A stretch of DNA of 64,000 bases from positions 983,691 to 1,047,690 of the forward strand of contig NZ_BLJO01000001.1 of NCBI RefSeq assembly GCF_009932555.1. Direction: 5' to 3'. Within the stretch, counting starts at the first letter, position 1. Each line of letters opens with the position of its first letter. The translations under genes were made by a program, and so were the position numbers. The notes below the pieces were generated by a model, which saw only the letters and a list, made by a program, of their open reading frames with translations, had not been told where the DNA came from and searched no databases. Source of the DNA: Steroidobacter agaridevorans (lineage in GTDB: Bacteria; Pseudomonadota; Gammaproteobacteria; Steroidobacterales; Steroidobacteraceae). Below, one piece after another: positions 18,467 to 41,365 of the stretch.

Positions 18467-18485
18467 GGAAACTCCTGGAGAACGA

Positions 18486-19781
18486 CTACGACGCTACGTG
18501 GCGCCGGCGTGCAAACGATTGTTCGAAAGTGACGCGTGACCCGCCGGAGCCGTCCGTGGGCACCTCGATGATCTTCACCGTCGCTTTGTCGCCTTCGATG
18601 CTCAGATGCGCGAAGCCCCAGGTCAGCCCCTTGGCATAGAGCGTGCGCAACTGCGGATAGCTGGCGAGCTGATTGCGAATGAACGCGCTATTGGTCGGGC
18701 GCATCTTCGCAGCGCTGCCCGAGACGACCTGCGGCAACGGATCGCTCGCGCCCGTGTCGGTCTGCGAGCAATCGTCGGTGTGCACTTCCATCGTGTGCTC
18801 GTGACCGGCGAGATAGAAGTCGGCATAGCGACACAATGTCGGCAGGATGAGCCGCCGCAACGCATGTGCCTGCTCGAATTTGCTGCCCGCCCCGGACCAC
18901 AGCGGGTGATGGCCGATGACTATTTTCCAGCGCGCCTTGGAATTGCGCAGCGAATCTTCCAGCCACGCGACCATGTTGCGCTCGGCATCGGTTTGCGGGA
19001 CCGCCCACTTCGATAGCTTCTCGCGCTTCTGACTGCGCACCTCGCTCGCATCGTCCGCGAGCGTCGCCTTGTAAACGGTGGTGCCCGCGAGCAGCACTTC
19101 CGTGTCGATGGCAAACACCTCCACGTCGCCATGAGCCGCCGGCGGCTGTACGCGATAGAACAGCCCGTTCATATAGAACGGCCGCGTCTGCTCGAGGAAC
19201 TGGACCTGAGCCATCGCGCCCTCGCGGGAAGTCCGCCAATCGTGATTGCCCAGCACCGAATAGATACGAAAGTCGTCGTGCCTGCGCCCCAGACCCGCGA
19301 ACGGCGTCACGAACAAGTCACGAAACCGCTGCGTGTCGCGCCCGTCGACGTTGGCCGTCGCACCGTCAGGATAGATGTTATCTCCCAGCATCACCCCGAA
19401 GTCGCAGTCCGCCGCGCCGGCGCAGTACGCTTGCATGGCATTCGCAACCGGCTCGAGTCCGCTGGCAGTGATCATGCTGCCGTTACGCGGCAGACGATAC
19501 ATCGGCGAATAAGCGAGCTCGTCGATGGGCCGTTTGTCCTCGATCCAGTCGCGCCGCTCCTTGGCCTTGAAGTTCTCTTCGGTCACGACGATCTCGTAGT
19601 CCTCGGCTTCGAGATAGTCGTAGTGATAGCCGCTGTCGCCGAACACCAGGATCGAAACATCGGTCGCCGCCTGCACCGCTGGCTTCGCGGGGTCTACGTC
19701 GACGGACCTGCAGGAGAGCAGCGTCGCGCTCAGCAGCAGCGCAATGGTCGATAACCAGAGCGAGCTCTTCGATAGCTTCAC
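18486..19781 (-). CDS. Metallophosphoesterase (purple acid phosphatase-like) lipoprotein
   Basis: A 431-residue putative lipoprotein: a lipobox LLSC puts the lipidated Cys at 24. The calcineurin-like metal motifs appear in order: FGDSG, MLGDN, LGNHDW, IGHHP and AGHEH. The GTG at 19781 has GGAGG eight bases upstream and overlaps the kinase stop in GTGA, so translation is coupled. Between an OPA transporter/kinase pair and iolA, a phosphate-removing role on lower inositol phosphates at the membrane is a reasonable inference; the actual substrate is not shown. Confidence 0.82.
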
Positions 19782-20659
19782 GAGTACTGCCTCCGGATCA
19801 ACTCTTCCACGTCCGCACGTGTACGACGGATCGGCCCTTCCGCCTCGAGCTTCAGGCTGGTCAGCGCTGCGGCCCATGTGGTCGCCTGCTGCGGTGTCAT
19901 CTGCAGGCGGCCGGAAAGATAGGAGCCGACGCAGGTGTCACCGCGACCGCTGCGCCCCCGCAGCTCCTCCGGCCGGAACGGCTGCTCGAAATACTCGCCG
20001 TTCGCCAGCACGAGCAAGCCGTCCTTGTGCGTCAGCACGATTTCCTTGGGACCGTACGAGGCAAGCTTGCGGGCCGCGACCCGGATGTCCGACTGGCCCG
20101 TGAGAAATTCCGCTTCCACCGCGTCGGTCTTGAGCACGTCGACCAGCGACAGCACTTCTGACATTTCCGGCCAGCCTTGATACGTCAGCTTGCCTTCAGG
20201 CGTGACGATGCGAACGAACCCTTGCACGTCGACCCCAAGCAACCTCGCGCGCTCGCGAATCGTCTTCACCACCGGCAGCGACACTTCGCCGCGAATGGAC
20301 GCGCTGATGAGGATTGCCTCGGCGCGCACGCTGGCAACGTCCTCGATCTGAAAGGGATCGGCAATGTCGGTGACCGTCAGAATGCGCTCGTCGACGTTGG
20401 CCGTCGGATATTCCAGCCGCATGACCGTGGACCGCGCCGAGTCTCGCACCATCACTTCCACGCCCGCTTCTTTCAACAGCCGGGTGGACTCGATGTCCTC
20501 CCTCGCGAGCCGAGTGACGGCGCCGACGCGTTGATCCAGCAAGCGCGCGGCGTGTGCCGAATAGCTATAGCCGCCGCCATGAACCTGACGAGTGCCGGCG
20601 CGCGTGACGATAGTGTCCTTGGTGTATGCGCCGATAGAAACAAAGTCGAACGTGTGCAA
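19778..20659 (-). CDS. PfkB family carbohydrate kinase
   Basis: A 293-residue ribokinase-fold kinase. Its N-terminus FDFVSIGAYTKDTIV and GGGYSYSAHAARLL fits the substrate-binding start. The catalytic anion hole is GRGDTCVGSYL instead of the usual GAGD, with the catalytic Asp kept. It is distinct from the separate IolC kinase at 33025. Archaeal and plant myo-inositol 3-kinases belong to this superfamily, so an inositol kinase is possible, but a sugar or nucleoside kinase cannot be excluded. Second gene of the operon, 22 bases after the transporter. Confidence 0.8.
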   Translation of the reverse strand: MHTFDFVSIGAYTKDTIVTRAGTRQVHGGGYSYSAHAARLLDQRVGAVTRLAREDIESTRLLKEAGVEVMVRDSARSTVMRLEYPTANVDERILTVTDIADPFQIEDVASVRAEAILISASIRGEVSLPVVKTIRERARLLGVDVQGFVRIVTPEGKLTYQGWPEMSEVLSLVDVLKTDAVEAEFLTGQSDIRVAARKLASYGPKEIVLTHKDGLLVLANGEYFEQPFRPEELRGRSGRGDTCVGSYLSGRLQMTPQQATTWAAALTSLKLEAEGPIRRTRADVEELIRRQYS

Positions 20660-20681
20660 GAGAATGTCCCCCCGATGAATC

Positions 20682-22079
20682 TCAATCGTGCAACTTCACG
20701 CGCCACAGACAGGCGGCCAGCAGCATCGACAACAACGACGAGCCGAGCCAGAACCAGATGACCGTGCTGAAGTCATAAGTGCGGACGCCATCGACGACGG
20801 TCATGCCGCGCTCGATCAGATGCCCGCTGACGTTTTCCTGGATGGCCGCGCCCAGATAACTGAAGATGCCGATCAAGCCCATGGCGGCGCCGGCGACCCG
20901 CTTCGGACAGATGTCGACCGCGAACAATCCACCGAGCGCCGTGACCAGGCCGGTCAGGCCGATGCCAAACAGCACCATGCCGACAATCAGCACGGAGGTG
21001 TTCGCGGGCCCGAAGAAGATCAACACCAGGCCCGCGAGTTCGACGATGGCGAACACCAGGTTGGTCGGCGGCCTGCGCGCGTGGAAGACCTTGTCGGACA
21101 CGAATCCATACGAGATCGCGCCGACCATGCCTGCGATCGTGCTGATCATCAGCAACGTGCCGGCCATGGTCAGCGAATAGCCGCGCGCCTCCTGCAAATA
21201 GAGCACGCCCCACGAGTTGATGGCGTAGCGCGTGATGTAAATGGTCGAGCTGGCCAGCGCGAGTATCCAGATGGGCGCGATCTTCACGATCGACAGCTGT
21301 GTGGCGAAGGTGCTTTGCTGTTGCGTGCTCACCTGGGCGTAGTGATCGTTGCGCCAGTCGGCAACAGTCGGCAAGCCCAAGGTGCGCGGCCGATCCTGCA
21401 CGAAGCGGTACGCCACCGCAGCCATGACGATGCCAATCAGGCCCGGCACCCAGAATCCCCATCGCCAGCCGAGTACCGCGACCACTGCGCCAACCACTAG
21501 AAACGTCAGTCCCTCGCCGATGGAGTGCGCAGTGCTCCACAAACCGTAGACCCGGCCACGCTCGCGATTGCTGAACCAGGCGGTGATGGCGACCACGCTG
21601 GACGGCGCGCCGAAGCTCTGGAACCAGCCATTCAGTCCCCACAGCAGCACCGACAATGCAACCGTGGTGGAAAAACCCATCCCCACGTTGCACAGCGCGG
21701 TCAACAAAAAGCCCAACGCCAGAAATCGTTTGATGTTGGCGTGATCGGCGAGAAAGCCGTTGGTCAGCTTGCCGATGGCATAGGCATAAAAGAGCGCGGA
21801 ACCGATCATGCCCAGCTCGGCAGGACCGAACACGCCGGCATCGATGAGCGGCTTCTTCACGACGCCGAGCGCCAATCGGCACGTATAGATCACACCGTAG
21901 CAAAGCGTGATCGCGACCATCACTCGCACGCGGTGATAGCGAAACAAGGTGTCGACTGCGGCGGAATCCTGGAGCACGGGACGGTCCGCGCCGGTCGCGA
22001 AGAACTTCAGCAATGAGCCCAATGCCGAAGCCCTCCCCGCCAGTCGCAGACCTTCGATCTCCGGTTCGCCAGCGCTCAC
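20682..22079 (-). CDS. Organophosphate:phosphate antiporter (OPA) family MFS transporter
   Basis: A 465-residue, roughly 12-segment inner-membrane protein. The segment starting ITLCYGVIYTCRLALGVVKK resembles the GlpT/UhpT/UhpC opening helices, and GWFQSFGAPSSVVAITAWF is the OPA signature region. Family members exchange organic phosphates (glycerol-3-P, hexose-6-P) for phosphate. Here it heads the kinase-phosphoesterase-iolA operon and is divergent from a phytase, suggesting import of inositol monophosphates or similar esters; this is an inference. GTG 22079 follows a GGGGGAAG sequence. Confidence 0.85.
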   Translation of the reverse strand: MSAGEPEIEGLRLAGRASALGSLLKFFATGADRPVLQDSAAVDTLFRYHRVRVMVAITLCYGVIYTCRLALGVVKKPLIDAGVFGPAELGMIGSALFYAYAIGKLTNGFLADHANIKRFLALGFLLTALCNVGMGFSTTVALSVLLWGLNGWFQSFGAPSSVVAITAWFSNRERGRVYGLWSTAHSIGEGLTFLVVGAVVAVLGWRWGFWVPGLIGIVMAAVAYRFVQDRPRTLGLPTVADWRNDHYAQVSTQQQSTFATQLSIVKIAPIWILALASSTIYITRYAINSWGVLYLQEARGYSLTMAGTLLMISTIAGMVGAISYGFVSDKVFHARRPPTNLVFAIVELAGLVLIFFGPANTSVLIVGMVLFGIGLTGLVTALGGLFAVDICPKRVAGAAMGLIGIFSYLGAAIQENVSGHLIERGMTVVDGVRTYDFSTVIWFWLGSSLLSMLLAACLWRVKLHD

Positions 22080-22105: not shown

Positions 22106-22151
22106 TGAAATTTGATTTCCATTAGCTTAAAACAATGGAAAAAATATTCCA
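22106..22151. promoter_or_regulatory. Tandem operator pair between the OPA operon and phytase
   Basis: Two 16-bp dyads: TGAAATTTGATTTCCA (22106-22121) and TGGAAAAAATATTCCA (22136-22151), starts exactly 30 bp apart. The second has perfect arms TGGAA/TTCCA around six bases. They lie in the divergent gap between the transporter GTG (22079) and the phytase ATG (22187), close enough to control both. The same pair geometry recurs at 28216/28246 and 35855/35885. The likely binder is the RpiR-type regulator at 28351 (inference). Confidence 0.75.
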
Positions 22152-22186
22152 AGCCCAATCGCCGGCATTCCATCAAGAGAGACGCC

Positions 22187-24211
22187 ATGAAATACCCTCC
22201 GCTTTTGACCGCCCTCGCCCTTGGCCTGTTGGCATGGCAGGCGCAGTCTTCGACACAACAGAATCCAGCCATCAGCGTGCCGGTGGACCGAACCACGCAG
22301 CCCACCTCCCATAAGTTCGCGCTCGATGCCGCCGTGTGGCGGGATCCGGCGCAACCCGCGAATAGCCTGTTGATCGTGGCGGCCGGTGAAGGCGGCCTGG
22401 AAATTCACGATCTGGCTGGGCAGCGAGTCGCGGCCTTCGCTGAGGTCGAAGTCGGATTCGTCGAGGTACCGGACCGATCGAGCTTGCCGCAGGGCCTGAA
22501 CAAGCTCGTACTAGTGAGTGACCAACGCGCCGGCGCCGTTCGAGCCTTCCGCTTCGATGCAGGCACTCGCAAGTTGCAGGAAGTCGCTCCGCAGCCGCTG
22601 CGCATTGACGATGAGATTACCGGCCTGTGCTCGTATGTGAGCCCACTGACGAACAAGCTTTACGCGTTCGTCTCGACCGGTCAGGGTCAATTCGAACAGT
22701 GGGAGTTGTTTTCCCAGGCACAGCAGGTTGCCGGGCGCATGGTGCGCAGGATCGCGGCAGGCAAAGGCGTCGGTCATTGCGCAGTCGACGATGCTCGCCG
22801 TCGCGTCTATTTCAGCGAAGAGTCGGTCGGCGTGTGGAGTATCGCAGCGGAACCTGAATCGGATACGGCACGCGAAGCCGTCGACCTCGTCGCGCCACGC
22901 GGCGGGCTGAGCGAAGAAGTCAAAGGCATTGCCGTCCATCCTGCTTCCGGGACGACGCTGTTGTTAGCACGCGATGCCGATGGCTTTGTCGCCTATTCGT
23001 TGCCCGATAGCGAGCCGCGGCGAGTCCAGCTGGGCGCGCCCAAGCAGATTGGCGACGCGGAAGGATTGACGATCGCCGCCGAGCCGCTCGGAGGTGCATT
23101 TCCCAATGGCGTGCTGATCGTCGCCGATGAAGACGCCGGCGATTACAAGCTGGTGTCGTTGAGCGCGCTCACGAAATCGCTGGATTTACCGACGGCGCAG
23201 AACGCCGCTGCGGCCAGCGAGTTCATTCCAGGCGCAGTGGCGCCGGCCGTGGAGAGCGAGCCGGTGGCCAGCTTCGGCGATGCCGCCGACGATCCGGCGA
23301 TCTGGGTGGATCGTCAGGCCCCCAGCCGCAGCGTCGTGATCGCGACAGACAAGAAACTGGGCCTCAATGTTTATGACCTGGATGGCAAGTTGATCCACAG
23401 TGTGCCGGACGGTCGCATGAACAACGTCGACGTGCGCGACGGCTTCACCTTCGGCGGACGCCCCATCACGCTCGTGGCCGCAACCAATCGAACGCGCAAA
23501 TCCATCAGCTTGTATCGCTACGATGCCCAGGCGCGGCAGCTGCAGGCCTTGCCCGGCGGCGATCTGGCGACCGGCTTCGACGATCCATACGGTCTGTGCA
23601 TGTATCGAAGCGCGAAGAATGGCGCCTACTACGTCTTTGCCAACGACAGCGCCGACGGCCGTATTCGCCAATGGCGGGTCTCAGCCAAAGCCGGAAAGAT
23701 CGCTGGCGAGCTGGTGCGCGAGATCGAGGTCGGCTCGCAGGCCGAAGGTTGCGCGGCAGACGACGAGCTCGGTCATCTGTATGTCGCGGAAGAAGACGTG
23801 GCGCTTTGGAAATATTCCGCCGAGCCGCGGGACGGCTCACGTCGCACGTCCATCGACACTGTCGAGAAAGGCCGCCTGACGGATGATATCGAAGGCCTGT
23901 CGATCTACTACGGCGCGAATGGCGCCGGTTATCTGGTCGTATCGAATCAGGGTGAAGACAATTACGCCGTGTATCGTCGCGAAGGTAACAACGAGTACCT
24001 CGGCAAGTTCGCTGTAGTCGCGAACAGTGAAGCCGGCATCGACGGCGCCTCCGAAACGGATGGGTTGGATATCGTGAGCGCGCCGCTGGGCGAGCGCTTT
24101 CCGGAAGGCTTGCTGGTCGTGCAGGATGGTCGCAACCTGATGCCGGCGGAACGCCAGAACTTCAAGTACGTGTCCTGGAAGGATGCGCTGCGCTCGCTGC
24201 GCAAGGAATAA
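22187..24211 (+). CDS. Dual-domain beta-propeller phytase
   Basis: A 674-residue exported protein with a short signal (MKYPPLLTALALGLLAWQAQ). It contains two phytase (3-phytase) units. Unit 1 (about 35-340) is degenerate: its start reads LDAAVWRDPAQPANSLLIVA. Unit 2 (about 360-674) has the canonical DDPAIWVDRQAPSRSVVIAT, MNNVDVRDGF, DDPYGLCMY and QAEGCAADDELGHLYVAEED. BPPs remove phosphates from calcium-phytate. Known dual-domain BPPs have an incomplete N-terminal unit that helps release extra phosphate. ATG 22187 keeps the signal at the N-terminus; GAGAG lies just upstream. Confidence 0.9.
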   Translation: MKYPPLLTALALGLLAWQAQSSTQQNPAISVPVDRTTQPTSHKFALDAAVWRDPAQPANSLLIVAAGEGGLEIHDLAGQRVAAFAEVEVGFVEVPDRSSLPQGLNKLVLVSDQRAGAVRAFRFDAGTRKLQEVAPQPLRIDDEITGLCSYVSPLTNKLYAFVSTGQGQFEQWELFSQAQQVAGRMVRRIAAGKGVGHCAVDDARRRVYFSEESVGVWSIAAEPESDTAREAVDLVAPRGGLSEEVKGIAVHPASGTTLLLARDADGFVAYSLPDSEPRRVQLGAPKQIGDAEGLTIAAEPLGGAFPNGVLIVADEDAGDYKLVSLSALTKSLDLPTAQNAAAASEFIPGAVAPAVESEPVASFGDAADDPAIWVDRQAPSRSVVIATDKKLGLNVYDLDGKLIHSVPDGRMNNVDVRDGFTFGGRPITLVAATNRTRKSISLYRYDAQARQLQALPGGDLATGFDDPYGLCMYRSAKNGAYYVFANDSADGRIRQWRVSAKAGKIAGELVREIEVGSQAEGCAADDELGHLYVAEEDVALWKYSAEPRDGSRRTSIDTVEKGRLTDDIEGLSIYYGANGAGYLVVSNQGEDNYAVYRREGNNEYLGKFAVVANSEAGIDGASETDGLDIVSAPLGERFPEGLLVVQDGRNLMPAERQNFKYVSWKDALRSLRKE

Positions 24212-24223
24212 CGAGCAAGAAAA

Positions 24224-24247
24224 AGGCGCGCCCGCGAGGGCGCGCCT
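24224..24247. terminator. Bidirectional hairpin terminator between convergent phytase genes
   Basis: AGGCGCGCC (24224-24232), loop of six, GGCGCGCCT (24239-24247): a perfect nine-bp stem. It is preceded by AAAAA, which gives a U-run on the minus-strand transcript. It separates the two convergent phytase genes ending at 24211 and 24265. Confidence 0.8.
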
Positions 24248-24264
24248 GACTCGGCCTCGAGCAA

Positions 24265-25599
24265 TCAATCCAGATCGCGAATGTCGTGCTCGTCGTCGAC
24301 GATCAGGTCGAGCTGATCGGCAATGTCCTCCCACTGCACGAACTTGAAGTTGGTGTTCTCGATGGCCTCGCCTTCCGGATCCAGGATGTCCGGGGTGTTG
24401 CCGCCATCCATGGCCACGAACAAACCGTCGTCGAACGGGGCGCCGAAGTCGGCATTGCTGACGCCGATGCCGTCGGTTTCCTGCGTGCCGTCGACCATGC
24501 CGTCCACGATGGAGAATCGGCCGACGTAGTCGTTGTCTTCGCGGTCATACACCAAGTACTCGTTGTTACCCTGACTCGAGACGATCACATAACCCTCTTC
24601 GTCGTCCGCTTCGTACAACGTCACGCCTTCGACGTCGCGGGTCAGCCGTCCGCCGTACCCTGGATCCTGCTGCGTCTGGTATTCGCACACATACTCTTCT
24701 TCATCAGGATCCCAGGTGCGCGTGTACGGCGTGCCATACGTGTCGACCTTGTCGATCAGCTGCAGGTTGGCGCCGGGATTGTCGATGGTCGTACGCCACA
24801 GTCCGACGGCTTCCTGACCGATGTAAACGTAGCCGCGATCCCGATCGATGACCGTACCTTCCGCCATCGGCGTCGGCCCGTCCTCATCCTGACAAGGCGC
24901 CCACTGCTGGCCATTGGGCAAAGTGAACTGCGATGGCAAGTTGAAACGCACCAACGGCGCGTAGCCGACTTTGCCGCCGCCGGCGTCGTACAAACGGAAC
25001 TTGGCGGCCTGCGAGCGATCGTTGCGCGTGACGAAAGCGATGGTCTGACCGTTCTCCAGCTTAGCGGTGCCAATGCCCATCGCCGTCAGCTCATCGTTCA
25101 CTTCGCCCTGGTTGGCGGCGAAGACGAACGGCAAGCCGGCCTTGGTCACTTCGGTCAGCGGCACGGCCGCATCGGAACCGCTCTTGTTGATTTCAAAGAT
25201 GGCCAGCCGATCGAAGCCGCGGTCGGTGGCAACCGCCAGATCCACGGTGCGCGAGCCGAGCTTGAATCCGTACACCAGGTCGACGTTGTTGAAGCGCTGA
25301 CGGGGATAGTCGGGATTGGCGTGCGGCAGCCCGGCGATGTGTTGCAACAGCTGGCCCTGCAGGTTGTAAACATCGATGCCGCCTTCTTTCAAGGTGGCGA
25401 CGATCAGACTCTTGTGCTGGCGATCTTCGTTGGGATGCACCCAGATCGCCGGATCGTCGGCGTTCGCAAGATGCTCGCCATCGTCGTAGTCGAGCGACGG
25501 CGGAGTTTCACGAACGGCCTGGACTTGCGCGCTGTGAGCGAGCCCGGCGGACAACGCACCGAGCACGGCAAGCGCGAGGACGGAATGCACTTTCGACAT
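24265..25599 (-). CDS. Single-domain beta-propeller phytase
   Basis: A 444-residue exported phytase. Signal peptide MSKVHSVLALAVLGALSAGLAHSA. The propeller start has NADDPAIWVHPNEDRQHKSL, then FNNVDLVYGF, acidic QDEDGPTPMAEGTVIDRDRG, YVYIGQEAVGLW and RDVEGVTLYEADDEEGY, all BPP landmarks with calcium-binding acidic residues. AAGGAGGG is ideally placed before ATG 25599. It lies 89 bases after the TonB receptor stop in the same direction, a receptor-phytase pairing described for other BPP genes. The C-terminal tail is very acidic (VDDEHDIRDLD). Confidence 0.93.
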   Translation of the reverse strand: MSKVHSVLALAVLGALSAGLAHSAQVQAVRETPPSLDYDDGEHLANADDPAIWVHPNEDRQHKSLIVATLKEGGIDVYNLQGQLLQHIAGLPHANPDYPRQRFNNVDLVYGFKLGSRTVDLAVATDRGFDRLAIFEINKSGSDAAVPLTEVTKAGLPFVFAANQGEVNDELTAMGIGTAKLENGQTIAFVTRNDRSQAAKFRLYDAGGGKVGYAPLVRFNLPSQFTLPNGQQWAPCQDEDGPTPMAEGTVIDRDRGYVYIGQEAVGLWRTTIDNPGANLQLIDKVDTYGTPYTRTWDPDEEEYVCEYQTQQDPGYGGRLTRDVEGVTLYEADDEEGYVIVSSQGNNEYLVYDREDNDYVGRFSIVDGMVDGTQETDGIGVSNADFGAPFDDGLFVAMDGGNTPDILDPEGEAIENTNFKFVQWEDIADQLDLIVDDEHDIRDLD

Positions 25600-25634
25600 G
25601 GAACCCTCCTTTGGGTGTGACAACAGGGCATCGA

Positions 25635-25656
25635 GGCGCTCGCGGATGCGAGCGCC
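25635..25656. other. Intercistronic stem-loop between TonB receptor and phytase
   Basis: GGCGCTCGC (25635-25643) and GCGAGCGCC (25648-25656) form a perfect nine-bp stem with a four-base loop in the 89-base gap. No T-run follows on the minus strand, so an RNA-processing or stabilising element that sets different receptor and phytase levels is more likely than a terminator. Confidence 0.55.
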
Positions 25657-25688
25657 GTCCATCGACGTGCGGTGGGAAAACGATCAGC

Positions 25689-28133
25689 TCAGAAGGTGCT
25701 GCGGAACGTGAGAATGATCCACGGATCCGACTCTTCCTGATCGATCTCGGAGCTGACCGGAGTGCGCGCGTTGTACTGCGCGGCCGATTCGTAGATGCGA
25801 GTCACATCCTTGCGCTTGGCGTCGAGCAGGTTCTGCGCGGCCACGCGCACGACATAGCGCTCCGCGAACGTTTTCTCGAGGAACACTTCGAGGTTGCCCT
25901 CGAAAGTCACATCGGCGACCTCCTTGGTGGCGGCGCCCGAATCGACCCATTCTTCGGCCGCACCGCGCTTCTGATAGCTCGAACCCCAGGTGAGCGCCCA
26001 GCTCTCGATCAGGTGGTCGAAGCCGACGTTATAGATGTAGTCCGGCTGCATGGAGAAGCGCCGGTCGATGGGGAAGTTGCTGTTGGCGTCGCGGATCTCG
26101 GAGTGCACGTACGTGTAATTGGCGAACACGTGGAAATTCGGCGCTCCGATCACCTCCAGCGGATAGCTCAGATCGAACTCGACGCCGTAGATCGTGCCCT
26201 TGTTCGGATTGTTCACATACTGCGTGGCTTCGATCTCGTCATCGATCTGCGCCTGGAAGATGGCGTTCACCTCGTCGCCGACGCCGTTCAGCTCGATCTT
26301 GTTCTCGATGCGCCGGTAGAACGCGTTGACGCCGAGCACCGCGTCCTCGGCGTTCAAGCGCAGGTCGAAGCCGCCGTCGAGTCCGAGCGCGGTTTCCTGA
26401 TCCAGGGTCGGATTGCCCAGCACGCTCTCGTCTTCGTCGAGCAGCAGCGTCGGATTGAGCTCGTCGAAGCTCGGACGGCGCACGGTGCGCGCCGCCGACA
26501 GTCTCAGCTGCAGCGAATCGGTCGCGTCCCAGCGGATATGCGCGGTCGGGTTCAGCTCGAAGTAGTCGTTGTCGACCGCGATCTGATTGCCCTCCACGTT
26601 CAATCCCAGCGAGCTGAGCGCGGCGGCCGCATCGGCCACGGGCCCGGCGACGGTCGACGTGATTTCCAGGTTGGTCTGCTCGCCACGCACGCCGAGCTCG
26701 AGCTTGGTGCTGTCGGTGAGATCGACGCCCCATTGCACGAAGCCGGCGATGCGCTCGTCGTCGACGTTGAAAATACTGAACAGGTCATCGAGCGTGACCA
26801 GCTGGCCGTCGTCGAGCTCCTGCACGTTGAAGCTGTAATCGCGCTTCTTCAGCACGTAGTCGAGGCCGACGCTCAGGGTCGCAGCGGTGAACTTCCATTT
26901 GAACTTGCCGCCCGCCTTGGCCTCGGAGTCCTCGCTGTCCTCGTTCTCGATGCTGTCGATGTTGTCGAACACGTCGATCTCGTGACCGAACTGGGTGCTG
27001 TTGGCGCGGAACTGCTGATTCAACTGCGGATCGTTGAATGAAGACAGGAACGGCAGGATGTCGTCGCCGGAACTCAGGCCGACGCTGGCGAAGTCGAAAT
27101 CCATGTCGACCAGGTAATTGGTTTCCTTCGCTTCGCCCTCGGTGCGGTCGTAGCTCGCCGAGACTTCCCAGGAGTTGCCGCCATCGGTGGGCGCGGTGAA
27201 CGTGGCGGCCAGCATCCAGTTGCGCTCACGGAATGCATCGGTCTGATTGGTCTGCTCGGCGCCCGAGTCCAGGTCGCCGTCGTCGTCTTCGGCCTCGAAG
27301 GCGCGCTCGAACTCGTGCTCGACCCGGTCGGTGTCCACGAACAGCGAGTTGAACTGCAGCTCCTGGCCGCCGTCGAGCTTGAATGCCAGGTCGCCGGTCC
27401 AGGCGATGTCGCGGGTGTCGCGCTCGTCCGGCTCGATGGTGGTCTTGAATTCCGGCTCGGCGTTGCCTTCGCCATCCAGCACGCGCTCGACGGAATACAC
27501 CTGCTTGCGATTGAAGCGCTCCTGATAATTGAGCGAAGTGCCCCACTGGACCGCGTCGTTGGTGTGCCCGTACGAGACGAACGCGCTGGGCCGGGTCTCG
27601 CCGTCGATGTAGTAGCCGCCGAGTCGATAGATGCCGCCGTTGAATTCGGCGCCTTCCTTGAGAATGATGTTCAGCGTGCCGCCGATGCCCTGGCTGTCCA
27701 TGTCGCTGGTGGGGCTGCGGATGATTTCGACCCGCTCGACCAGCTCGGCCGGAATGCGATCCACCAGCACGGTGTTGTCATTGCCCGAGCCGGAGATGCG
27801 GCGGCCGTTGATCAGGATCTGGGTGTACTCCGAGCCGATGCCGCGCAACGACGGCGCCGCGTACTCGCCAACGTCGTCGCTGAACGTCACGCCCGGCACG
27901 CGCTTCATCATTTCGCCGACCGACAGCGGCTCGAAGCGCTGGAAATACTCTTCGGAATAAGTGAGCACCGGCTCGGCCAGCTCGGTGCGCTCGCGCGCAT
28001 TGACGCGCTTGGCGAGCACTTCGATGAACTCCAGGGTGTCTTCCTTGGCCGGTTCGGCAGCATTGGCTGCCGCCGTCGCCAGAGTAATCGACACCGCGCT
28101 CGCCAGGACGCTCCCCTGCTTTAACCGTCTCAT
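25689..28133 (-). CDS. TonB-dependent outer-membrane receptor (probable phytate/inositol-phosphate receptor)
   Basis: An 814-residue receptor. Signal peptide ends ATAAANAA. The plug domain starts near FIEVLAKR and includes RVPGVTFSDD, SLRGIGSEYTQILINGRR and VERVEIIRSPTSDMDSQGIG. The barrel ends in ILTFRSTF with the terminal Phe needed for assembly. Two unusually acidic stretches occur at about residues 279-293 (EAEDDDGDLDSG) and 387-406 (DNIDSIENEDSEDSEA), probably surface loops. GGGGGAAAG lies before ATG 28133. With the phytase downstream and an operator pair upstream, uptake of phytate or its partial products is the best inference. Confidence 0.87.
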   Translation of the reverse strand: MRRLKQGSVLASAVSITLATAAANAAEPAKEDTLEFIEVLAKRVNARERTELAEPVLTYSEEYFQRFEPLSVGEMMKRVPGVTFSDDVGEYAAPSLRGIGSEYTQILINGRRISGSGNDNTVLVDRIPAELVERVEIIRSPTSDMDSQGIGGTLNIILKEGAEFNGGIYRLGGYYIDGETRPSAFVSYGHTNDAVQWGTSLNYQERFNRKQVYSVERVLDGEGNAEPEFKTTIEPDERDTRDIAWTGDLAFKLDGGQELQFNSLFVDTDRVEHEFERAFEAEDDDGDLDSGAEQTNQTDAFRERNWMLAATFTAPTDGGNSWEVSASYDRTEGEAKETNYLVDMDFDFASVGLSSGDDILPFLSSFNDPQLNQQFRANSTQFGHEIDVFDNIDSIENEDSEDSEAKAGGKFKWKFTAATLSVGLDYVLKKRDYSFNVQELDDGQLVTLDDLFSIFNVDDERIAGFVQWGVDLTDSTKLELGVRGEQTNLEITSTVAGPVADAAAALSSLGLNVEGNQIAVDNDYFELNPTAHIRWDATDSLQLRLSAARTVRRPSFDELNPTLLLDEDESVLGNPTLDQETALGLDGGFDLRLNAEDAVLGVNAFYRRIENKIELNGVGDEVNAIFQAQIDDEIEATQYVNNPNKGTIYGVEFDLSYPLEVIGAPNFHVFANYTYVHSEIRDANSNFPIDRRFSMQPDYIYNVGFDHLIESWALTWGSSYQKRGAAEEWVDSGAATKEVADVTFEGNLEVFLEKTFAERYVVRVAAQNLLDAKRKDVTRIYESAAQYNARTPVSSEIDQEESDPWIILTFRSTF

Positions 28134-28215
28134 CGCTTTCCCCCTGGACGCTCGACGCGTCTCTGAATCGTGCATGAGTTGTAGTTCCGCACTCGAGTGC
28201 AGCTGGTCGAGAGTC

Positions 28216-28261
28216 TAGAACGAACATTTCATTGAACGCAACTAGTGAAATAAAAATTCCA
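28216..28261. promoter_or_regulatory. Tandem operator pair between TonB receptor and RpiR regulator
   Basis: TAGAACGAACATTTCA (28216-28231) and TGAAATAAAAATTCCA (28246-28261), starts exactly 30 bp apart. Both fit TGRAA-N6-TTYCA with one mismatch in the first. They lie in the 217-base divergent gap between the receptor ATG (28133) and the regulator ATG (28351). A TATAGT -10-like sequence (28267-28272) follows directly on the plus strand, so binding could repress the regulator's own promoter. The gap is otherwise AT-richer than the surroundings and carries no other visible feature. Confidence 0.75.
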
Positions 28262-28350
28262 GATGCTATAGTTGCGCCACGCTGCGGCCGCCGGTCCTGA
28301 AGAGCTGCATAGAATATTTATTGCAGCGACCGTATGATTTGGGAATTTCC

Positions 28351-29220
28351 ATGACACTCAGAGAATTAGCCGTGGCGAGCAGCGCAAAAACACTCGAGAC
28401 CCTGCGGGGCGACATCGTGCGCCGGTACGAGGAGCTCAGTCCCCGACTGCAGCAGGTCGCCAAGTACGTGTTGGAAAATCCGAACGACATGGCGCTGCAG
28501 ACCCTGGCGGTCATCGCCGAGCGCTGCGAAGTCCAGCCCTCCACCATCGTGCGCTTCGCCAAAACCTTCGGTTACGAAGGCGCGAGCGATATGCAGGAGC
28601 TGTTCAAGGACGAGATGCTTACCCAAGCGCCGAGCCCCAGTTACGCCGAGCGCATCCGGCAGTTCTCGCGCCGTGCAGGCGCCGCGGGCGCGCTTGCTCC
28701 CCAGGATGTGATGCACGAGTTCGCGGACAGCAACATCCTCGCATTGGAGCATTTGAAGAGCAGCGTCCGCAAAGCCGACCTGGAGCGGGCGGTGGAAATG
28801 ATCGCCGGGGCGAGCGCGGTCTACATCGTCGGCCTGCGACGCTCCTTTCCGGTTGCCTCCTATCTTGCCTATGCCCTGCGCCACGTCGACAAGCGCGCTT
28901 ACTTGCTCGACGGCGTGGCCGGCATGCTGGCCGAACAAAGCACCATGCTCACGTCGAAGGATTTGCTGATCGCCATCAGCTTCCAGCCCTACGCGGCGGA
29001 AACCGTGGAGATCGTCGGCTCCACGCGTGAGCAGAAGGCCAGGATCATCGCCATCACCGACAGTCGCTTGAGCCCGATCGCGGCCGCCTCGGACCTGGTG
29101 TTCGAGATCAAGGACGCGGAGGTGCGTCAGTTCCGTTCATTGACCGCGTCGCTGTGCCTCGCGCAGTCGCTGGTCATCAGTTATGCATTCGACATGGAAA
29201 AACGTGGCCGCGTACGCTGA
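28351..29220 (+). CDS. iolR: MurR/RpiR family transcriptional regulator, probable inositol regulator
   Basis: A 289-residue regulator. The N-terminal HTH (about 20-90) contains LSPRLQQVAKYVLENPNDMA and CEVQPSTIVRFAKTFGY. The C-terminal SIS domain (about 125-265) has ASAVYIVGLRRSFPVASYLAY and LLIAISFQPYAAETVEIV, the sugar-phosphate binding fold. The rhizobial IolR belongs to the same family. ATG 28351 gives the usual length; a TTG at 28321 would extend it by ten residues. It is followed 27 bases later by iolG and flanked by an operator pair, so it is the natural candidate for the locus repressor. Confidence 0.85.
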   Translation: MTLRELAVASSAKTLETLRGDIVRRYEELSPRLQQVAKYVLENPNDMALQTLAVIAERCEVQPSTIVRFAKTFGYEGASDMQELFKDEMLTQAPSPSYAERIRQFSRRAGAAGALAPQDVMHEFADSNILALEHLKSSVRKADLERAVEMIAGASAVYIVGLRRSFPVASYLAYALRHVDKRAYLLDGVAGMLAEQSTMLTSKDLLIAISFQPYAAETVEIVGSTREQKARIIAITDSRLSPIAAASDLVFEIKDAEVRQFRSLTASLCLAQSLVISYAFDMEKRGRVR

Positions 29221-29247
29221 GCGAGGCAGCGTCCGTCAGGGGGACAA

Positions 29248-30237
29248 ATGATTCGATTTCTATTGATAGGCGCGGGACGTATCGGTCGTATCCACGCGGA
29301 GAACATAGTGCGCGGGGCGGGCTCCAGTCTGGTGGCCGTCACCGACGCCGATGCACGCGCAGCCGCAGAGCTTGCGAGCAGGTGGTCATGCCGCGCCGTG
29401 AAACCGGATGAAGCCTTGGCGCAAACCGACTTCGACGCCGTGCTCATCGCCAGCTCAACCGACACTCACGCCGATTGGATCGAGCGCTGCGCCGCCGCCG
29501 GCAAGCCGGTGTTCTGCGAAAAGCCGCTCGATCTGGACATCGGTCGGGCCACGCAATGCATGCGCAAGGCTGAAGCGGCCGGCGTCCCGCTGTATCTCGG
29601 CTTCAATCGTCGCTATGACCCCTCCTTTGCGCGACTCAAGCATGAAATCGCCGCAGGGACGATCGGTTCGCTCGAAACGCTGCACATCACCAGCCGCGAT
29701 CCTGCGCCGCCGCCAGTGGACTACGTGCGCCGCTCGGGCGGTTTGTTCCGCGACATGATGATTCACGATCTGGATATGGCGCGCTGGCTGCTGGGCGCCG
29801 AGCCGGTGGAAGTGTTCGCGCGAGGCAGTGCCCTGGTCGATCCGGAGATCGGCGCCGCGGGCGATATCGACACGGCCATGGTGATGTTACGGACGGCGGA
29901 TGGCCGGCTGTGCCAGATCGCGAATAGCAGGCGTTGCAGCTTTGGATACGATCAGCGCATCGAGGCGTTCGGCGCGGCCGGCATGGTCAGCGCCAACAAT
30001 CACACCGCCACCAGCGTGACTGTCGCAGACAAGCAAGGCTACACGACCGAGCCCGCACTGCCCTTCTTCCTGGAACGTTACGCCGATGCGTATCGCCTGG
30101 AGCTGGAGGATTTCATCGGCGCGCTCAACGGCAAGAAGGTCGAGCTTGCAACCGGAGAGGACGGCCGACGTGCACTCCTGCTGGCGGATGCAGCCCAACG
30201 CTCGTTGACGACGGGAGTTGCGGTGGCGCTGAGCTAA
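29248..30237 (+). CDS. iolG: Myo-inositol 2-dehydrogenase
   Basis: A 329-residue Gfo/Idh/MocA oxidoreductase making scyllo-inosose from myo-inositol with NAD. GAGRIGR at 8-14 is the dinucleotide motif, EKP at 91-93 gives catalytic K92, and RDMMIHDLD gives D169 and H173 with the spacing known in IolG. AGGGGG lies just before ATG 29248. It probably forms an operon with the regulator upstream and is convergent with iolE. Confidence 0.93.
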   Translation: MIRFLLIGAGRIGRIHAENIVRGAGSSLVAVTDADARAAAELASRWSCRAVKPDEALAQTDFDAVLIASSTDTHADWIERCAAAGKPVFCEKPLDLDIGRATQCMRKAEAAGVPLYLGFNRRYDPSFARLKHEIAAGTIGSLETLHITSRDPAPPPVDYVRRSGGLFRDMMIHDLDMARWLLGAEPVEVFARGSALVDPEIGAAGDIDTAMVMLRTADGRLCQIANSRRCSFGYDQRIEAFGAAGMVSANNHTATSVTVADKQGYTTEPALPFFLERYADAYRLELEDFIGALNGKKVELATGEDGRRALLLADAAQRSLTTGVAVALS

Positions 30238-30247
30238 GGAAACTGGC

Positions 30248-30274
30248 GCTCCCTCGCCTCGCGAGCGAGGGAGC
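30248..30274. terminator. Bidirectional hairpin terminator between iolG and iolE
   Basis: GCTCCCTCGC (30248-30257), loop of seven, GCGAGGGAGC (30265-30274): a perfect ten-bp stem in the 44-base gap between the convergent genes. The plus-strand trailer is pyrimidine-rich (CTTCTCCTC) without a pure T-run. Confidence 0.75.
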
Positions 30275-30281
30275 CTTCTCC

Positions 30282-31169
30282 TCAAACAAACAGCTCGGTC
30301 GCGAGGCGCGACAGATGCTGATAACCCATCTTCGCGTAGACAATCGGCGTGGCCACCGCCGGATCCTGCTCCGCCTCGACCACCAGCCAGCCGCGATAAC
30401 CGCTGCGAGCCACGGGCTGCAAGACGCTGCGATAGTCGACCATGCCATCGCCAGGCACCGTGAACACACCATCGAGCACTGCATTTAAAAAGCTGGTGTC
30501 TTCATTACGAGCTCGCTCCAGGACCGGCCGGCGTACATCCTTACAATGAACGTGCGCGATGCGCGCCGCATAACGCCCTGCCATTTGCGCGGGATCGCCG
30601 CCTGCATAGGTGAGATGACCGGTATCGAGCAACAGGCCTACGGCATCGCCGGTTGCCTGCATGAGATTGTCGATGTCCGCCGCTGACTGCACGACCGTCC
30701 CCATATGATGGTGATAGGCGAGCCGCAGCCCCGCAGAACGCATCTTCTCCGCAAGCCGGGTCATGCGCTCGCCGAAGCGCTGCCAATCGCCCTTGGTGAG
30801 ATGAGGTCGCTGCGATAACGGGGCTCGCTGATCGCCGTGGGTACAGCGTGAAACTTCGGCGAACACCATCACCTCGCAACCCAACGCGTGCAGCAGTTCG
30901 AAATGCGCGCTCATCGCGTCCCATTCGGCGTCGACATCGCGCTCGAGCAGACGTGCGCTGTACCAGCCGGACACCAATTGCAGATCGTGAGCCTGCAGGA
31001 TCGGCCCGAGTTGAGCGGCAACCCGTGGAAACTTGTTGCCGAGCTCGATGCCCGTGTAACCCGCCTCGCGCGCTTCGCGCAGACAGGTCTCCAGGCTCGT
31101 TTCAGCGCCCAGCGACGGCAGGTCGTCGTTGGTCCACGTCAAGGGATTGATGCCGATGCGAATGTTCAT
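30282..31169 (-). CDS. iolE: Myo-inosose-2 dehydratase
   Basis: A 295-residue xylose-isomerase-like TIM barrel. It dehydrates scyllo-inosose to the diketone acted on by IolD. The start MNIRIGINPLTWTNDDLPSLG is typical of IolE (INPLTWTNDD). Metal-site regions LAYHHHMGTVVQ, LLDTGHLTYAGGDP and HVHCKDVR are present. ATG 31169 lies 23 bases after the iolD stop; the longer frame from 31295 overlaps iolD and is not used. Last gene of iolBCDE. Confidence 0.94.
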   Translation of the reverse strand: MNIRIGINPLTWTNDDLPSLGAETSLETCLREAREAGYTGIELGNKFPRVAAQLGPILQAHDLQLVSGWYSARLLERDVDAEWDAMSAHFELLHALGCEVMVFAEVSRCTHGDQRAPLSQRPHLTKGDWQRFGERMTRLAEKMRSAGLRLAYHHHMGTVVQSAADIDNLMQATGDAVGLLLDTGHLTYAGGDPAQMAGRYAARIAHVHCKDVRRPVLERARNEDTSFLNAVLDGVFTVPGDGMVDYRSVLQPVARSGYRGWLVVEAEQDPAVATPIVYAKMGYQHLSRLATELFV

Positions 31170-31192
31170 GAGTGCCGGTGTCAGTTGCGTTG

Positions 31193-33024
<1,832 letters not shown>

Positions 33025-33028
<4 letters not shown>

Positions 33029-34986
33029 AAGGACTGCTCCGCCAAGGCATCGGAGACTCGTGAGGATAAACGAGCATGGCTCGCGCGCAATGCGCGCCAG
33101 CTGTCGATCAAACGTTGATATCGGTCCGCGATATCGGCGACGACCTGCTCGTCGCTCAGCGCGCCGGCAAACCAGCCTCGCGCCGCCGGATTGAAAATGC
33201 TTCGGCCGACCGCAAACCCTTTGCACACCGGTATGGCCGCCGCGCTTTCGAACGACGCTTGCAGCGCTTCCTCTGGAGCGTCGAGCCCTAGCATCAGCAC
33301 GCCATTACAGTGCGGATCGCGCCGCTCGATGACCTCCGCGATGTTCAGCCAAGCAGCCCGCGATTGCGCCTCCAGCTTCCACCACGCTGGGCGCACGCCG
33401 AGGTTGTAGATACGAGTCAACGCCCGGGCAGTGGTCGCGTCATCCACCGGCAAGCCACGTCCGCTGCAGATGATTTCCAAAAGCAACTCACGATCCTGAG
33501 CGCGAGCGGCGTCGTTCAATGTGCGAATCTGACGTTCCTGCGCGAGACGCAGCTCGATGGGATCGTCCGGATGAAAGAACACCAGGCACTTGATGACGTG
33601 GGCCACCGGCCAGCTCGTCAGATGCAAACCGACGTTATCGGGAGGATCGAACGCCACCGGACGCGAGCCGGGCGTTTCGATCGGACGGCCGATCCAGAAG
33701 CCTTGCGTCGTGAGTCGATTCAAAACAGCCGAGCCGTGACGCGCATCGACAATGACACCCAGATGTTCCCGATCTCGTGTGCCCGCGGCCACACGCTCGA
33801 CGGCACGAGCGATCAGATCTTTGAATTCACCAATGCGCGCCCGCGACGCGCCGTGTTCGTCCGCCAGCTCTTCGAGCTGCCGACGATGATCGAACGCGAG
33901 TACATACAACGATTCTCGCGGCCGGCGAGTCGTCGTGGCTTCATGCACATGCGAGAGCTCGGCATCGAGATCGGGGCGTCGCACGCTCGCAGCCCGACGC
34001 AGAAACTCCTGAAGCTCCAGTGCACTCGGCATGGCCGGGGTGCAGCCGTGTCGTGATACGACCAGCGCCCCGCAGGCATTGCCAAGCCGGGCGCACTCGG
34101 CAAGCGGCCTGCCTCGCAGCCATCCTGAGAGAAAGCCGCTGAGAAAGGCATCGCCTGCGCCAAGCACGTTCAATACTTCGACCGGAAAGCCCGCGATCGT
34201 ATGCAGCTCCGCCAGCGTCGCCGGGACTTCATCGGTAATGACGCTGCATCCCGCCGGCCCGCGTTTGAGCACGATGGTCGCGTGCGTTTTGCGCCGGATC
34301 GCGCGCAAGGACGCAAGCACATCGTCGGAACCGCCGGCGATCCGGATTTCTTCTTCCGTGCCCACCACCAGATCGCAATCGGGCAGCACCCTTTGCAGTG
34401 CCTGGGTCACTTCGGCCGACTCGATGAAACGGGATTCCCCCTGCCCTGCATTCGTCAGTTTCCAAAGCACTGGCCGATAGTCGATGTCGAGGATGACGCG
34501 CGTTCGATTCGCTCGCGCCCAGCGGAACGCCTGTTCGACCGCTGCGCGAGTCCCTGGGGTCGACAGATGCGTGCCCGTGACGGCAACGGCGCGGCTGCCC
34601 GCAATGTATGACTCATCGAAGTCCTGCGCGCACACTCCCATGTCTGCGCAGTTCTCGCGAAAGAAGATATGCGGATAAGCCGCCGGACCTTCGATGCCCA
34701 ACACGACCGACGCGGTGAGACGCGTTGGATCGGTCGCCACATGACTCACATCGACGCCTTCGCGTTGCAAAGCCTCGCGGACGAAACGTCCCATGTGCTC
34801 GTCTCCCACGCGCGTCAACATGGACACACGCAAGCCGAGCCGCGAGGTTCCTGCTGCCAGATTTGCCGAAGATCCGCCCAGATATTTTGCGAAGCTGCGC
34901 ATATCCTCGAGCCGGCCGCCGATCTGCTCGCCGTAGAAATCCACGGCCGCGCGGCCCAGACAAATCAGGTCGAACGTCTTATTCAT
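33025..34986 (-). CDS. iolC: 5-dehydro-2-deoxygluconokinase fused to DUF2090 aldolase-like domain
   Basis: A 653-residue two-domain protein. The N-terminal PfkB kinase (about 1-325) has FDLICLGRAAVDFYGEQIG, LGGSSANLAAGTSRLGL and the active loop NVLGAGDAFLSGFL. The C-terminal domain (about 350-640) begins LYVLAFDHRRQLEELADEHG and has a class I aldolase-like layout (DUF2090). The kinase phosphorylates 5-dehydro-2-deoxygluconate. The fused domain is thought to perform the following aldol cleavage; no separate iolJ is seen here. It overlaps the iolB stop by eight bases. Confidence 0.94.
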
Positions 34987-35800
34987 TGTGGTCCATCTCG
35001 CGCGGGCGCCAGAAAGGAGCGCCGGCTTGCAAAGTCCAGGCATGCTCGGCGGTGAAGTCGGGAATCGTGTAAGGCTGGTCCGGCAGATGGCGGATCACCC
35101 ACGAGTAGTACATGCCATAGCCTGGCGCCGCGCACTGCGCGTGATCCAGGCCGGCGGGAATATGGATGGTGTCGTGCTCCATCACTTTGACGACGTTGTC
35201 GCCCAGCTCCGCATGACCATACCCCTGCGGCTGCGTGAAACGATAGTGATAAATCTCCGGCTGCGGATGATGATGCGGCGGATAGCTCGACCAGCCGCCT
35301 GGAAACGTCACCACTTCGCCGAGCACCAGCTCGACTGCGTCGGGCGAATTGCTCCGATCGAAGATGGTCCGGACGTAGCGCAGCGCCCGATCGCCGACCT
35401 GCCCGCGGCCACGCGGCTCGTTCGGCACGTCCTTCGCAGTGAACACGCGAGCTTCGAATGGCCTGAGATTGGCGCAATCGAACACCATGATCTCGGTATC
35501 GCGTGACGCGTCGAAAGCGATCGTGGCACCGGCGGGAGCATGAACGCAGCTCGCGGATTCATCGAACAACGACTCGCGCGAGAGTTCGAACTCGCGCTGA
35601 CCGACCGTCACCCGCACGCTGCCGCTCATTAACAGCCAGGCCGTTTCGCACGTGATGTGCTGAACGGACCGCTCGCTCCCGGCCAGACGCCAGACGCCGA
35701 TGCCAATCCGAGACGGATTGTCCGGATCCAGCTGACGCGCGATGGCCGTAAATCCCCGGTCGAAGCCGCGTCGATGCGCGGTGATGTGTTCTTTAGTCAT
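34979..35800 (-). CDS. iolB: 5-deoxy-glucuronate isomerase
   Basis: A 273-residue bicupin isomerase converting 5-deoxyglucuronate to 5-dehydro-2-deoxygluconate. The metal-binding cupin motif SSYPPHHHPQPEIYHYRF with a later HIPAGLDHAQCAAPGY is diagnostic. ATG 35800 gives the usual length, though its ribosome site is weak; an in-frame codon at 35830 is possible. It is the first gene of iolBCDE, downstream of the operator pair at 35855. Confidence 0.93.
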   Translation of the reverse strand: MTKEHITAHRRGFDRGFTAIARQLDPDNPSRIGIGVWRLAGSERSVQHITCETAWLLMSGSVRVTVGQREFELSRESLFDESASCVHAPAGATIAFDASRDTEIMVFDCANLRPFEARVFTAKDVPNEPRGRGQVGDRALRYVRTIFDRSNSPDAVELVLGEVVTFPGGWSSYPPHHHPQPEIYHYRFTQPQGYGHAELGDNVVKVMEHDTIHIPAGLDHAQCAAPGYGMYYSWVIRHLPDQPYTIPDFTAEHAWTLQAGAPFWRPREMDHNE

Positions 35801-35854
35801 GCCAGTCGTCGAATGTGCGGCGAGCCACACGCCCCGACCGGTACGCTAACCCAA

Positions 35855-35900
35855 TGGAATGAAAATTTCAATTCATTGGAATAATGGAATTGTAATTCGA
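35855..35900. promoter_or_regulatory. Tandem operator pair upstream of iolBCDE
   Basis: TGGAATGAAAATTTCA (35855-35870) and TGGAATTGTAATTCGA (35885-35900), starts exactly 30 bp apart. The first is embedded in a larger near-palindrome (35851-35879) with CCAAT/ATTGG ends. They lie in the 162-base divergent gap between iolB (ATG 35800) and the M14 peptidase (GTG 35963), so either or both genes may be controlled. Same motif and spacing as at 22106 and 28216. Confidence 0.75.
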
Positions 35901-38164: not shown

Positions 38165-38180
38165 TGTAATCTGATTTCCA
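38165..38180. promoter_or_regulatory. Single inositol-type operator candidate in SDR/LysR gap
   Basis: TGTAATCTGATTTCCA has the arms TGTAA/TTCCA six bases apart. It shares the 12-base string TGATTTCCATTA with the site at 22106 including its flank. No second copy occurs 30 bp away, so it may instead belong to the local LysR protein; ATTAGAT (38149-38155) and ATCTGAT (38169-38175) form a rough inverted repeat overlapping it. Confidence 0.45.
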
Positions 38181-39502: not shown

Positions 39503-40063
39503 CTATTGGATGACGGTGTGGATGATGAGTTGCAGCCTGCCGTCATGCGACGGCACCGGCGACAGCTCGAAATCGATGGGTTCGGCGGCGTTGCGCGCGA
39601 TCGTGAGCAAGCCGAGACCCGCGCCGCCATTGGGACTGTCGTCCGCTGCGTACTGCAGATTCGTCAGCCGCAGACGGAATTCGAAACGAATCTGTTCCGG
39701 CGTCAGATCGCGCAGCGCCTGTAGCCGTTGCCGGATTGGCGGTGCGTTGACCGCCGAGATCAAACTTTGCGAGCGCAGATGATAGCGCTGCCCGGCCTCC
39801 CACACGGCGATGGACCCGCAACGAACGATCTTCACGTCCCGTGCGCCTTCCGGCTCGCCGTGATGAATGATGTTGTAGGCCAGCTCGACGAAGCTGGAGA
39901 ATACCTTTCGCGCGCGCTGACTCTCCACATTCAACATGGCCAGCCGTGCCCGCAGCGATTCGCCTGTCGCGCCCACGATGCCGGCGCTCACCGCGCCAGA
40001 GTAACTGAAGATCTCTCGCTCGGACGATTCCGGCGTCATCCGATGTGCAACATTCCAACTCAT
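39503..40063 (-). CDS. siaB: SiaB family protein kinase
   Basis: A 186-residue kinase of the GHKL-like SiaB group (DUF6272). The N-box region is FSSFVELAYNIIHHGE, and a glycine-rich region NGGAGLGLLTIARNAAEP lies near the C-terminus. Known SiaB phosphorylates SiaC. It begins immediately after the siaA stop, consistent with coupled translation. Confidence 0.85.
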   Translation of the reverse strand: MSWNVAHRMTPESSEREIFSYSGAVSAGIVGATGESLRARLAMLNVESQRARKVFSSFVELAYNIIHHGEPEGARDVKIVRCGSIAVWEAGQRYHLRSQSLISAVNAPPIRQRLQALRDLTPEQIRFEFRLRLTNLQYAADDSPNGGAGLGLLTIARNAAEPIDFELSPVPSHDGRLQLIIHTVIQ

Positions 40064-41260: not shown

Positions 41261-41318
41261 TGAACAAACGAGGGTTTGAACACATGACGCGCTATTCTCG
41301 CGAAGGCCCTCACAACGC

Positions 41319-41338: not shown

Positions 41339-41365
41339 TTGCCGAGGGTTCACGAGACTGTCACA

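Follow-up and report, generated by a model that had tools for sequence, protein, structure and literature searches.

Three promoters in a 64-kb stretch of the Steroidobacter agaridevorans genome (hereafter, the window) carry palindromic dyads in pairs, which raises the question of what regulator reads these sites and why they are paired. The most probable answer, to which we assign a probability of about 80%, is that the pairs serve as operators for a proposed IolR, the RpiR-family protein encoded at 28351-29220. One dimer would bind each dyad, and a tetramer joined through its SIS domains would occupy two dyads 30 bp apart and repress transcription. In favor of this reading, only three such sites were found in 8.0 Mb, all of them at inositol or phytate promoters and one at rpiR itself.

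Paired dyads in the S. agaridevorans genome

The starts of the paired 16-bp dyads are 30 bp apart in all three cases (22106/22136, 28216/28246, and 35855/35885), exactly as claimed in a preliminary description of the window. The dyads were also called identical there, which is too strong: four of the six match TGRAA-N6-TTYCA exactly, and the remaining two, at 28216 (TAGAACGAACATTTCA) and 35885 (TGGAATTGTAATTCGA), carry one mismatch each. The half-sites are GGAA or GAAA, with AGAA in one. The strict dyad occurs four times in the window (22106, 22136, 28246, and 35855), compared with an expectation of 0.15 from shuffles and a maximum of two in 100 shuffles. For the 46-bp double motif with at most three mismatches, the three pair sites are the sole matches in the window, and 100 shuffles yielded none.

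The first predicted operator (22106-22151; dyads 22106-22121 and 22136-22151; score 41.7) lies between the operon of an OPA-like transporter on the minus strand and a phytase gene on the plus strand. The second (28216-28261; dyads 28216-28231 and 28246-28261; score 43.7) separates a TonB receptor gene on the minus strand from rpiR-iolG on the plus strand. The third (35855-35900; dyads 35855-35870 and 35885-35900; score 34.9) is located upstream of iolBCDE on the minus strand, divergently from an AstE/AspA-like gene on the plus strand. Near the second pair there is a weaker third dyad, TAGAATATTTATTGCA (28310-28325; two mismatches, score 16.3), 94 bp to the right of the first dyad of the pair; it has a counterpart at 11021 in the locus L024 of a close relative and is a possible accessory operator. 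The right dyad of the second pair coincides in part with a weak promoter-like sequence, GTGAAA-16-TATAGT (28245-28272). This chance-level site is the only one revealed by a crude sigma-70 scan of the three regions, with none at pairs 1 and 3.

A lone dyad, TGTAATCTGATTTCCA, is found at 38165-38180 (score 12.4) between a short-chain dehydrogenase/reductase gene and a LysR gene; it has no partner at 30 bp and is also present in L024, at 1048. The first 15 pairs suggested a difference between inner (TGAAA) and outer (TGGAA) half-sites, which was rejected on a larger test: in 25 family pairs, G is the third base of 33 of the 50 outer half-sites and of 28 of the 50 inner ones (p 0.41), and 13 other pairs gave p 0.77.

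Such pairs are not common by chance in this genome. A control of 400 kb from outside the window (20 stretches of 20 kb on two contigs) contains no strict dyads and 23 dyads with at most one mismatch. Its highest-scoring 30-bp pair reaches 7.8, compared with 34.9, 41.7, and 43.7 for the window pairs. A sequence profile built from 15 pairs, those of the window included, retrieved the three window sites alone at E <= 10 from the whole 8.0-Mb genome. The same three sites alone were found on scanning both strands with a hold-out profile of nine pairs from other species (E 2.4e-4, 4.5e-4, and 0.048). Of roughly 400 first-look candidates, both searches scored the best 150 and may have passed over weaker sites; among the candidates scored, the earlier claim that the pairs are confined to these three promoters stands.

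Dependence on rpiR and conservation of the spacing

Like the sites, their spacing, and their rarity in the genome, conservation and dependence on the presence of the rpiR gene are observed results. RpiR proteins (E <= 1e-20) are encoded in 19 of 200 genomes of the Steroidobacteraceae, and iolD is present in 26 of the 200, 16 with RpiR and 10 without it. The hold-out profile matches 11 of the 200 genomes, ten of which are RpiR-positive; the eleventh, G068, has a partial match at E 0.05. This count is partly circular because seven of the ten matched RpiR-positive genomes supplied model sites. A pattern scan that needs no training and includes control spacings was therefore used instead on the fetched loci of the 16 and 10 iolD genomes, and the contrast at 29-30 bp became stronger. 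Pairs at 29-30 bp with at most three mismatches over both dyads occur in 13 of the 16 genomes with RpiR and in none of the ten without it (Fisher 0.0001). At most two mismatches gave 10/16 versus 0/10, and the control spacings of 24 and 34-35 bp gave 0/16 and 0/10 at both thresholds. A looser scan (at most four mismatches) raised the count to 15/16 versus 0/10, but the control spacings then appeared in 5/16 and 2/16. Thus, the dyad pairs track the regulator and not the pathway. The 18 RpiR loci (351 kb) contain 49 dyads with scores of at least 15, of which 16 had served for training, and the ten iol loci that lack RpiR (172 kb) contain none.

The positions of the pairs are conserved as well. 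With a weight matrix trained without the window, the corresponding transporter gene was found to have paired dyads at its promoter in the near-identical species G115, and 30-bp pairs are present at this promoter in seven more genomes (G060, G044, G051, G034, G014, G079, and G101). The promoter of rpiR itself carries pairs in the window and in several relatives. In genus g14, rpiR has three-dyad arrays (30+30), and genus g18 has 29-bp pairs. Four g14 loci (L028, L029, L032, and L033) have five-dyad arrays upstream of rpiR, with successive spacings of 30, 30, 80-81, and 20 bp, possibly forming an extended nucleoprotein complex. Genus g18 also contains iol operons without RpiR (L161, L163, L165, and L167), in which ABC (ATP-binding cassette) sugar transporter genes stand beside iolG and no dyads are seen.

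In the family spacing set (30 loci, with the near-duplicate L024 left out and nine training pairs removed), 29 of the 59 close pairs are at 29-30 bp, in 18 of the 30 loci, compared with a null of 0. Secondary spacings gather at 20, 51-52, 58-60, 80-82, 100-101, and 110-113 bp; the classes at 20, 60, 80, and 100 bp are not independent, as they come mainly from genus g14.

A wider sample comprised 398 genomes of Pseudomonadota, 85 of them, including that of S. agaridevorans, with RpiR at E <= 1e-25. With the latter genome left out, the hold-out profile at E <= 0.01 matched 12 of 84 RpiR-positive and 6 of 313 RpiR-negative genomes (Fisher 2.5e-5); at E <= 0.1 the counts were 22 of 84 and 25 of 313, under strict filters and with a 30-bp model that penalizes 29-bp pairs. 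The pair lies within 20 kb of an RpiR gene in 17 of these 22 RpiR-positive matches, as counted from the tables. The two RpiR-negative matches that were opened, G368 and G541, contain one dyad each, not two.

The spacing itself was assessed at 24 wider loci, namely four plasmid loci (Asticcacaulis, Sphingobium, Sphingomonas, and Azospirillum) and 20 of the 29 best-scoring phylum loci, picked before any dyad scan of them. Among the close dyad pairs (9-130 bp) at these loci, 20 of 66 are at 29-30 bp, compared with a mean of 0.25 and a maximum of two in 40 runs of local shuffles. They are distributed over 13 of the 24 loci, nine from the same class as the window and four from other classes. The pitch is found again in other Gammaproteobacteria and in Alphaproteobacteria. 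With the plain pattern (at most three mismatches) the same peak emerged: of 123 pairs spaced 16-100 bp, 28 are at 29-30 bp. Fourteen places from the phylum search were also opened, nine with 30-bp pairs and five with a single dyad; being chosen by the model, they are no evidence for the spacing. Seven of the nine pairs are beside ABC sugar transporter genes whose products have 35-38% identity to the Asticcacaulis transporter, a similarity at the family level only.

The proposed regulator, its mechanism, and rival explanations

The protein encoded at 28351-29220 on the plus strand (the ATG start was read from the sequence) contains the HTH_6 (PF01418, E 2.6e-10) and SIS (PF01380, E 3e-19) domains, both above the cut-off. 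It is encoded with myo-inositol catabolic genes, and GGAA-N6-TTCC palindromes lie upstream of iol genes, which are features of RpiR-type IolR; iol genes are near RpiR in most relatives too. The protein is 99% identical to one from Peristeroidobacter agariperforans, 48% identical to a protein encoded beside iolCDEB in Asticcacaulis excentricus (Caulobacteraceae), and 41% identical to a Salmonella protein recorded under the name IolR.

For binding, the tetramer, the sign of regulation, the effector, and the transporter substrate, we infer the following scheme. One IolR dimer would read one 16-bp dyad, and two dimers joined through their SIS domains would occupy both dyads, 46 bp in total, over or beside the promoter. 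The resulting tetramer would repress the promoter, and repression would be relieved by a phosphorylated intermediate. Phytases would attack phytate outside the cell, and the TonB receptor and the OPA-like transporter would take up the substrate, probably inositol phosphates. The metallophosphatase and the PfkB kinase would then handle phosphate, with the iolGBCDEA pathway completing the regulon. The near-constant pitch in many related rpiR-bearing bacteria suggests a single complex of the repressor that holds the DNA with two hands.

An alternative is that IolR binds as independent dimers and that the pitch of 29-30 bp comes from promoter constraint, for instance with one dyad near -35 and one upstream, and not from protein-protein contact. 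The overlap of one dyad of the second pair with a weak promoter-like -35 agrees with it, as do lone dyads beside transporter genes (L152 and L153) and upstream of rpiR (L103 and L123). However, the same pitch is seen at divergent promoters, in 30+30 three-dyad arrays, and next to different genes, and the crude scan gave no sigma-70-like site at pairs 1 and 3; we consider independent dimers unlikely. It is far less probable still that the dyads are bound by a regulator other than the 28351 protein, even though the genome encodes two more distant RpiR proteins (26% and 20% identity) and there is a LysR gene at 38200, since the pairs accompany this RpiR from genome to genome, do not occur at any of the ten iol loci that lack it, are present at the promoter of rpiR itself in the window and several relatives, and share the motif of Caulobacter IolR (PMC2597717). 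The inner bases of the dyads are A+T-rich, and many weak dyads occur in the A+T-rich locus L121, as would be expected of chance A+T-rich palindromes in promoters, but that explanation is refuted by the shuffles (0.00), the 400-kb control, the hold-out genome search, the spacing histogram, and the control spacings.

Several observations weigh against regulation by an IolR tetramer. With 10.5 bp per helical turn, the pitches of 30 and 29 bp amount to 2.86 and 2.76 turns, neither a whole number. Binding to the same DNA face, as had been deduced from the spacing, is therefore only approximate, and its strict version needs bending or overtwist; since other lineages use 29 bp, the data favor a fixed pitch more than an exact in-phase geometry. 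Exact same-face geometry is not claimed here, the secondary spacings being nearer to multiples of 10 than of 10.5. In the family, three of the 16 iolD genomes with RpiR (G054, G194, and G197) have no pair at up to three mismatches; lineage is a partial confounder because the ten RpiR-negative control loci are mostly from genus g18, with a G+C content of 0.61-0.71; and the Fisher values (0.0001 in the family comparison) are only a guide because related genomes are not independent. In the phylum, even a threshold of E 0.1 leaves 62 of 84 RpiR-positive genomes without a model match and admits 25 of 313 RpiR-negative ones, in a search that does not separate IolR from other RpiR proteins, and 11 of the 24 wider loci have no pair at 29-30 bp. 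Finally, mutation of the second motif of Caulobacter iolC is reported to have no effect in complex medium (PMC2597717).

Gene content of the window and known RpiR systems

Downstream of rpiR and probably co-transcribed with it is iolG for inositol 2-dehydrogenase (29248-30237, plus strand; TIGR04380, 413.7 bits, cut-off 355). The minus-strand genes behind the third pair are iolB-like, for 5-deoxy-glucuronate isomerase (34979-35830; KduI/IolB PF04962, E 1.8e-50; TIGR04378, 95 bits, below the cut-off of 205), a kinase-aldolase fusion iolC (33025-35043; NF047869, 818 bits, cut-off 600), iolD (31193-33226; TIGR04377, 943 bits, cut-off 715; the true start is downstream of the start of the open reading frame), and iolE for myo-inosose-2 dehydratase (30282-31295; TIGR04379, 418 bits, cut-off 290). 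In relatives, a second Gfo/Idh/MocA-type dehydrogenase gene precedes iolB (L025, 11968-13101; L028 and L027), in the place of the divergent AstE/AspA-like gene of the window; the L025 protein is nearest to levoglucosan dehydrogenase, below the cut-off.

The minus side of the second pair is occupied by genes for the TonB-dependent receptor (25689-28175; PF00593 and PF07715) and a second phytase-family protein (24265-25662; PF02333, E 2e-52). The first phytase (22187-24211, plus strand) belongs to the PF02333 family (E 4.5e-127 on the open reading frame 22112-24211; the ATG at 22187 is from the sequence); phytases in relatives were called with the second phytase as a query and with Pfam. The operon on the minus side of the first pair (16940-22079) encodes a major facilitator superfamily transporter (20682-22079; PF07690), a PfkB-family kinase (19778-20659; PF00294, E 3e-11), a calcineurin-like metallophosphatase (18486-19877; PF00149, E 1.2e-12), and IolA, a CoA-acylating methylmalonate-semialdehyde dehydrogenase (16940-18466; TIGR01722, 715 bits, cut-off 448.5). 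The transporter had been described as an OPA transporter; it is indeed nearest to OPA-type families (UhpC/PgtP/GlpT-like), with scores all below the curated cut-offs (NF008661, 270 bits; TIGR00881, 248; TIGR00712, 221). The operon resembles a route by which inositol phosphates would be imported and processed. The order of transporter, PfkB kinase, metallophosphatase, and iolA is kept in G044, G051, G034, and G101; tblastn found no metallophosphatase in G060 or G079, and the G014 locus ends at a contig edge. Apart from these genes, a DUF6272 protein beside a SpoIIE-type phosphatase with a CBS domain (39503-41353) is possibly a partner-switching module.

Novelty appears to lie in the conserved paired pitch and in the phytate branch, the regulator family and the single motif having been described before. 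We recognized no description of 30-bp paired IolR operators in the literature searched, the main study of Sinorhizobium meliloti IolR (Kohler 2011) lying outside that comparison. If the proposed reading is true, the published single motif becomes a two-site grammar that picks IolR targets genome-wide with high specificity (three in 8 Mb), and the locus is an easy system for testing how RpiR tetramers read DNA. It would also link phytate breakdown, relevant to soil phosphorus, and the use of inositol carbon under one repressor.

RpiR proteins of solved structure are described as tetramers (PMC12713135), and by analogy IolR may be a tetramer as well. One of the closest precedents is MurR of Escherichia coli, also an RpiR-family protein with a two-site unit; in the model put forward for it, a tetramer bridges two neighboring sites that are separated by 17 bp and span 47 bp (PMC12713135). 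In the window, two operators at a pitch of 29-30 bp leave 14 bp between the dyads and span 46 bp, and because this unit fits the MurR span, a tetramer bridging both dyads is plausible. Unlike the proposed IolR, MurR responds to N-acetylmuramate-6-phosphate and controls another pathway; the comparison covers protein family, site arrangement, and span. Two further RpiR-family regulators are NanR of Vibrio vulnificus, which has two adjacent sites, and NanR of Streptococcus pneumoniae, with a dimer-tetramer equilibrium and a phosphosugar effector bridging the tetramer (PMC12713135). The latter differs in being an activator of the sialic acid pathway that has a single full site plus a degenerate half site.

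In operator sequence and gene context, the closest systems are IolR of Caulobacter crescentus and S. meliloti: RpiR-family proteins with SIS, encoded beside iol genes, with GGAA-N6-TTCC upstream of iol and transporter genes. In Caulobacter, this motif was found upstream of inositol genes, and it occurs in other Alphaproteobacteria too (PMC2597717, Boutte and co-workers). Deletion of the RpiR-type iolR (CC1297) derepresses three promoters, and mutation of one of the two iolC motifs raises expression. The window motif matches this published operator, as proposed in the preliminary description, though calling it rhizobial was too narrow, given its occurrence in Caulobacter, other Alphaproteobacteria, and, here, Gammaproteobacteria. 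The Caulobacter transporter is of the ABC type, whereas that of the window is OPA-like, and the parts of the Caulobacter account used here mention neither a phytase nor a TonB receptor or OPA-like transporter as belonging to the module.

As in the window, there is more than one motif copy at Caulobacter iolC. The portions of that report used here describe single motifs and the two at iolC, 104 and 45 bp upstream of the start and hence 59 bp apart, and mention no fixed 30-bp pair (PMC2597717). The L106 locus, from the same phylum, has three dyads ahead of iolC, with spacings of 30 and 29 bp that add up to 59 bp (scores 16, 10, and 12; two are weak), and a weak middle dyad is therefore predicted at Caulobacter iolC. 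A tentative generalization, for which the odds are somewhat below even, is that the RpiR-type IolR operator throughout Pseudomonadota consists of two, sometimes three, dyads at 29-30 bp read by a tetramer, the Caulobacter sites 59 bp apart being the ends of an array whose middle dyad is weak. Within the Steroidobacteraceae, the regulator would have taken over a complete phytate-scavenging branch, from inositol phosphates via the TonB receptor and the OPA-like transporter to the iol pathway.

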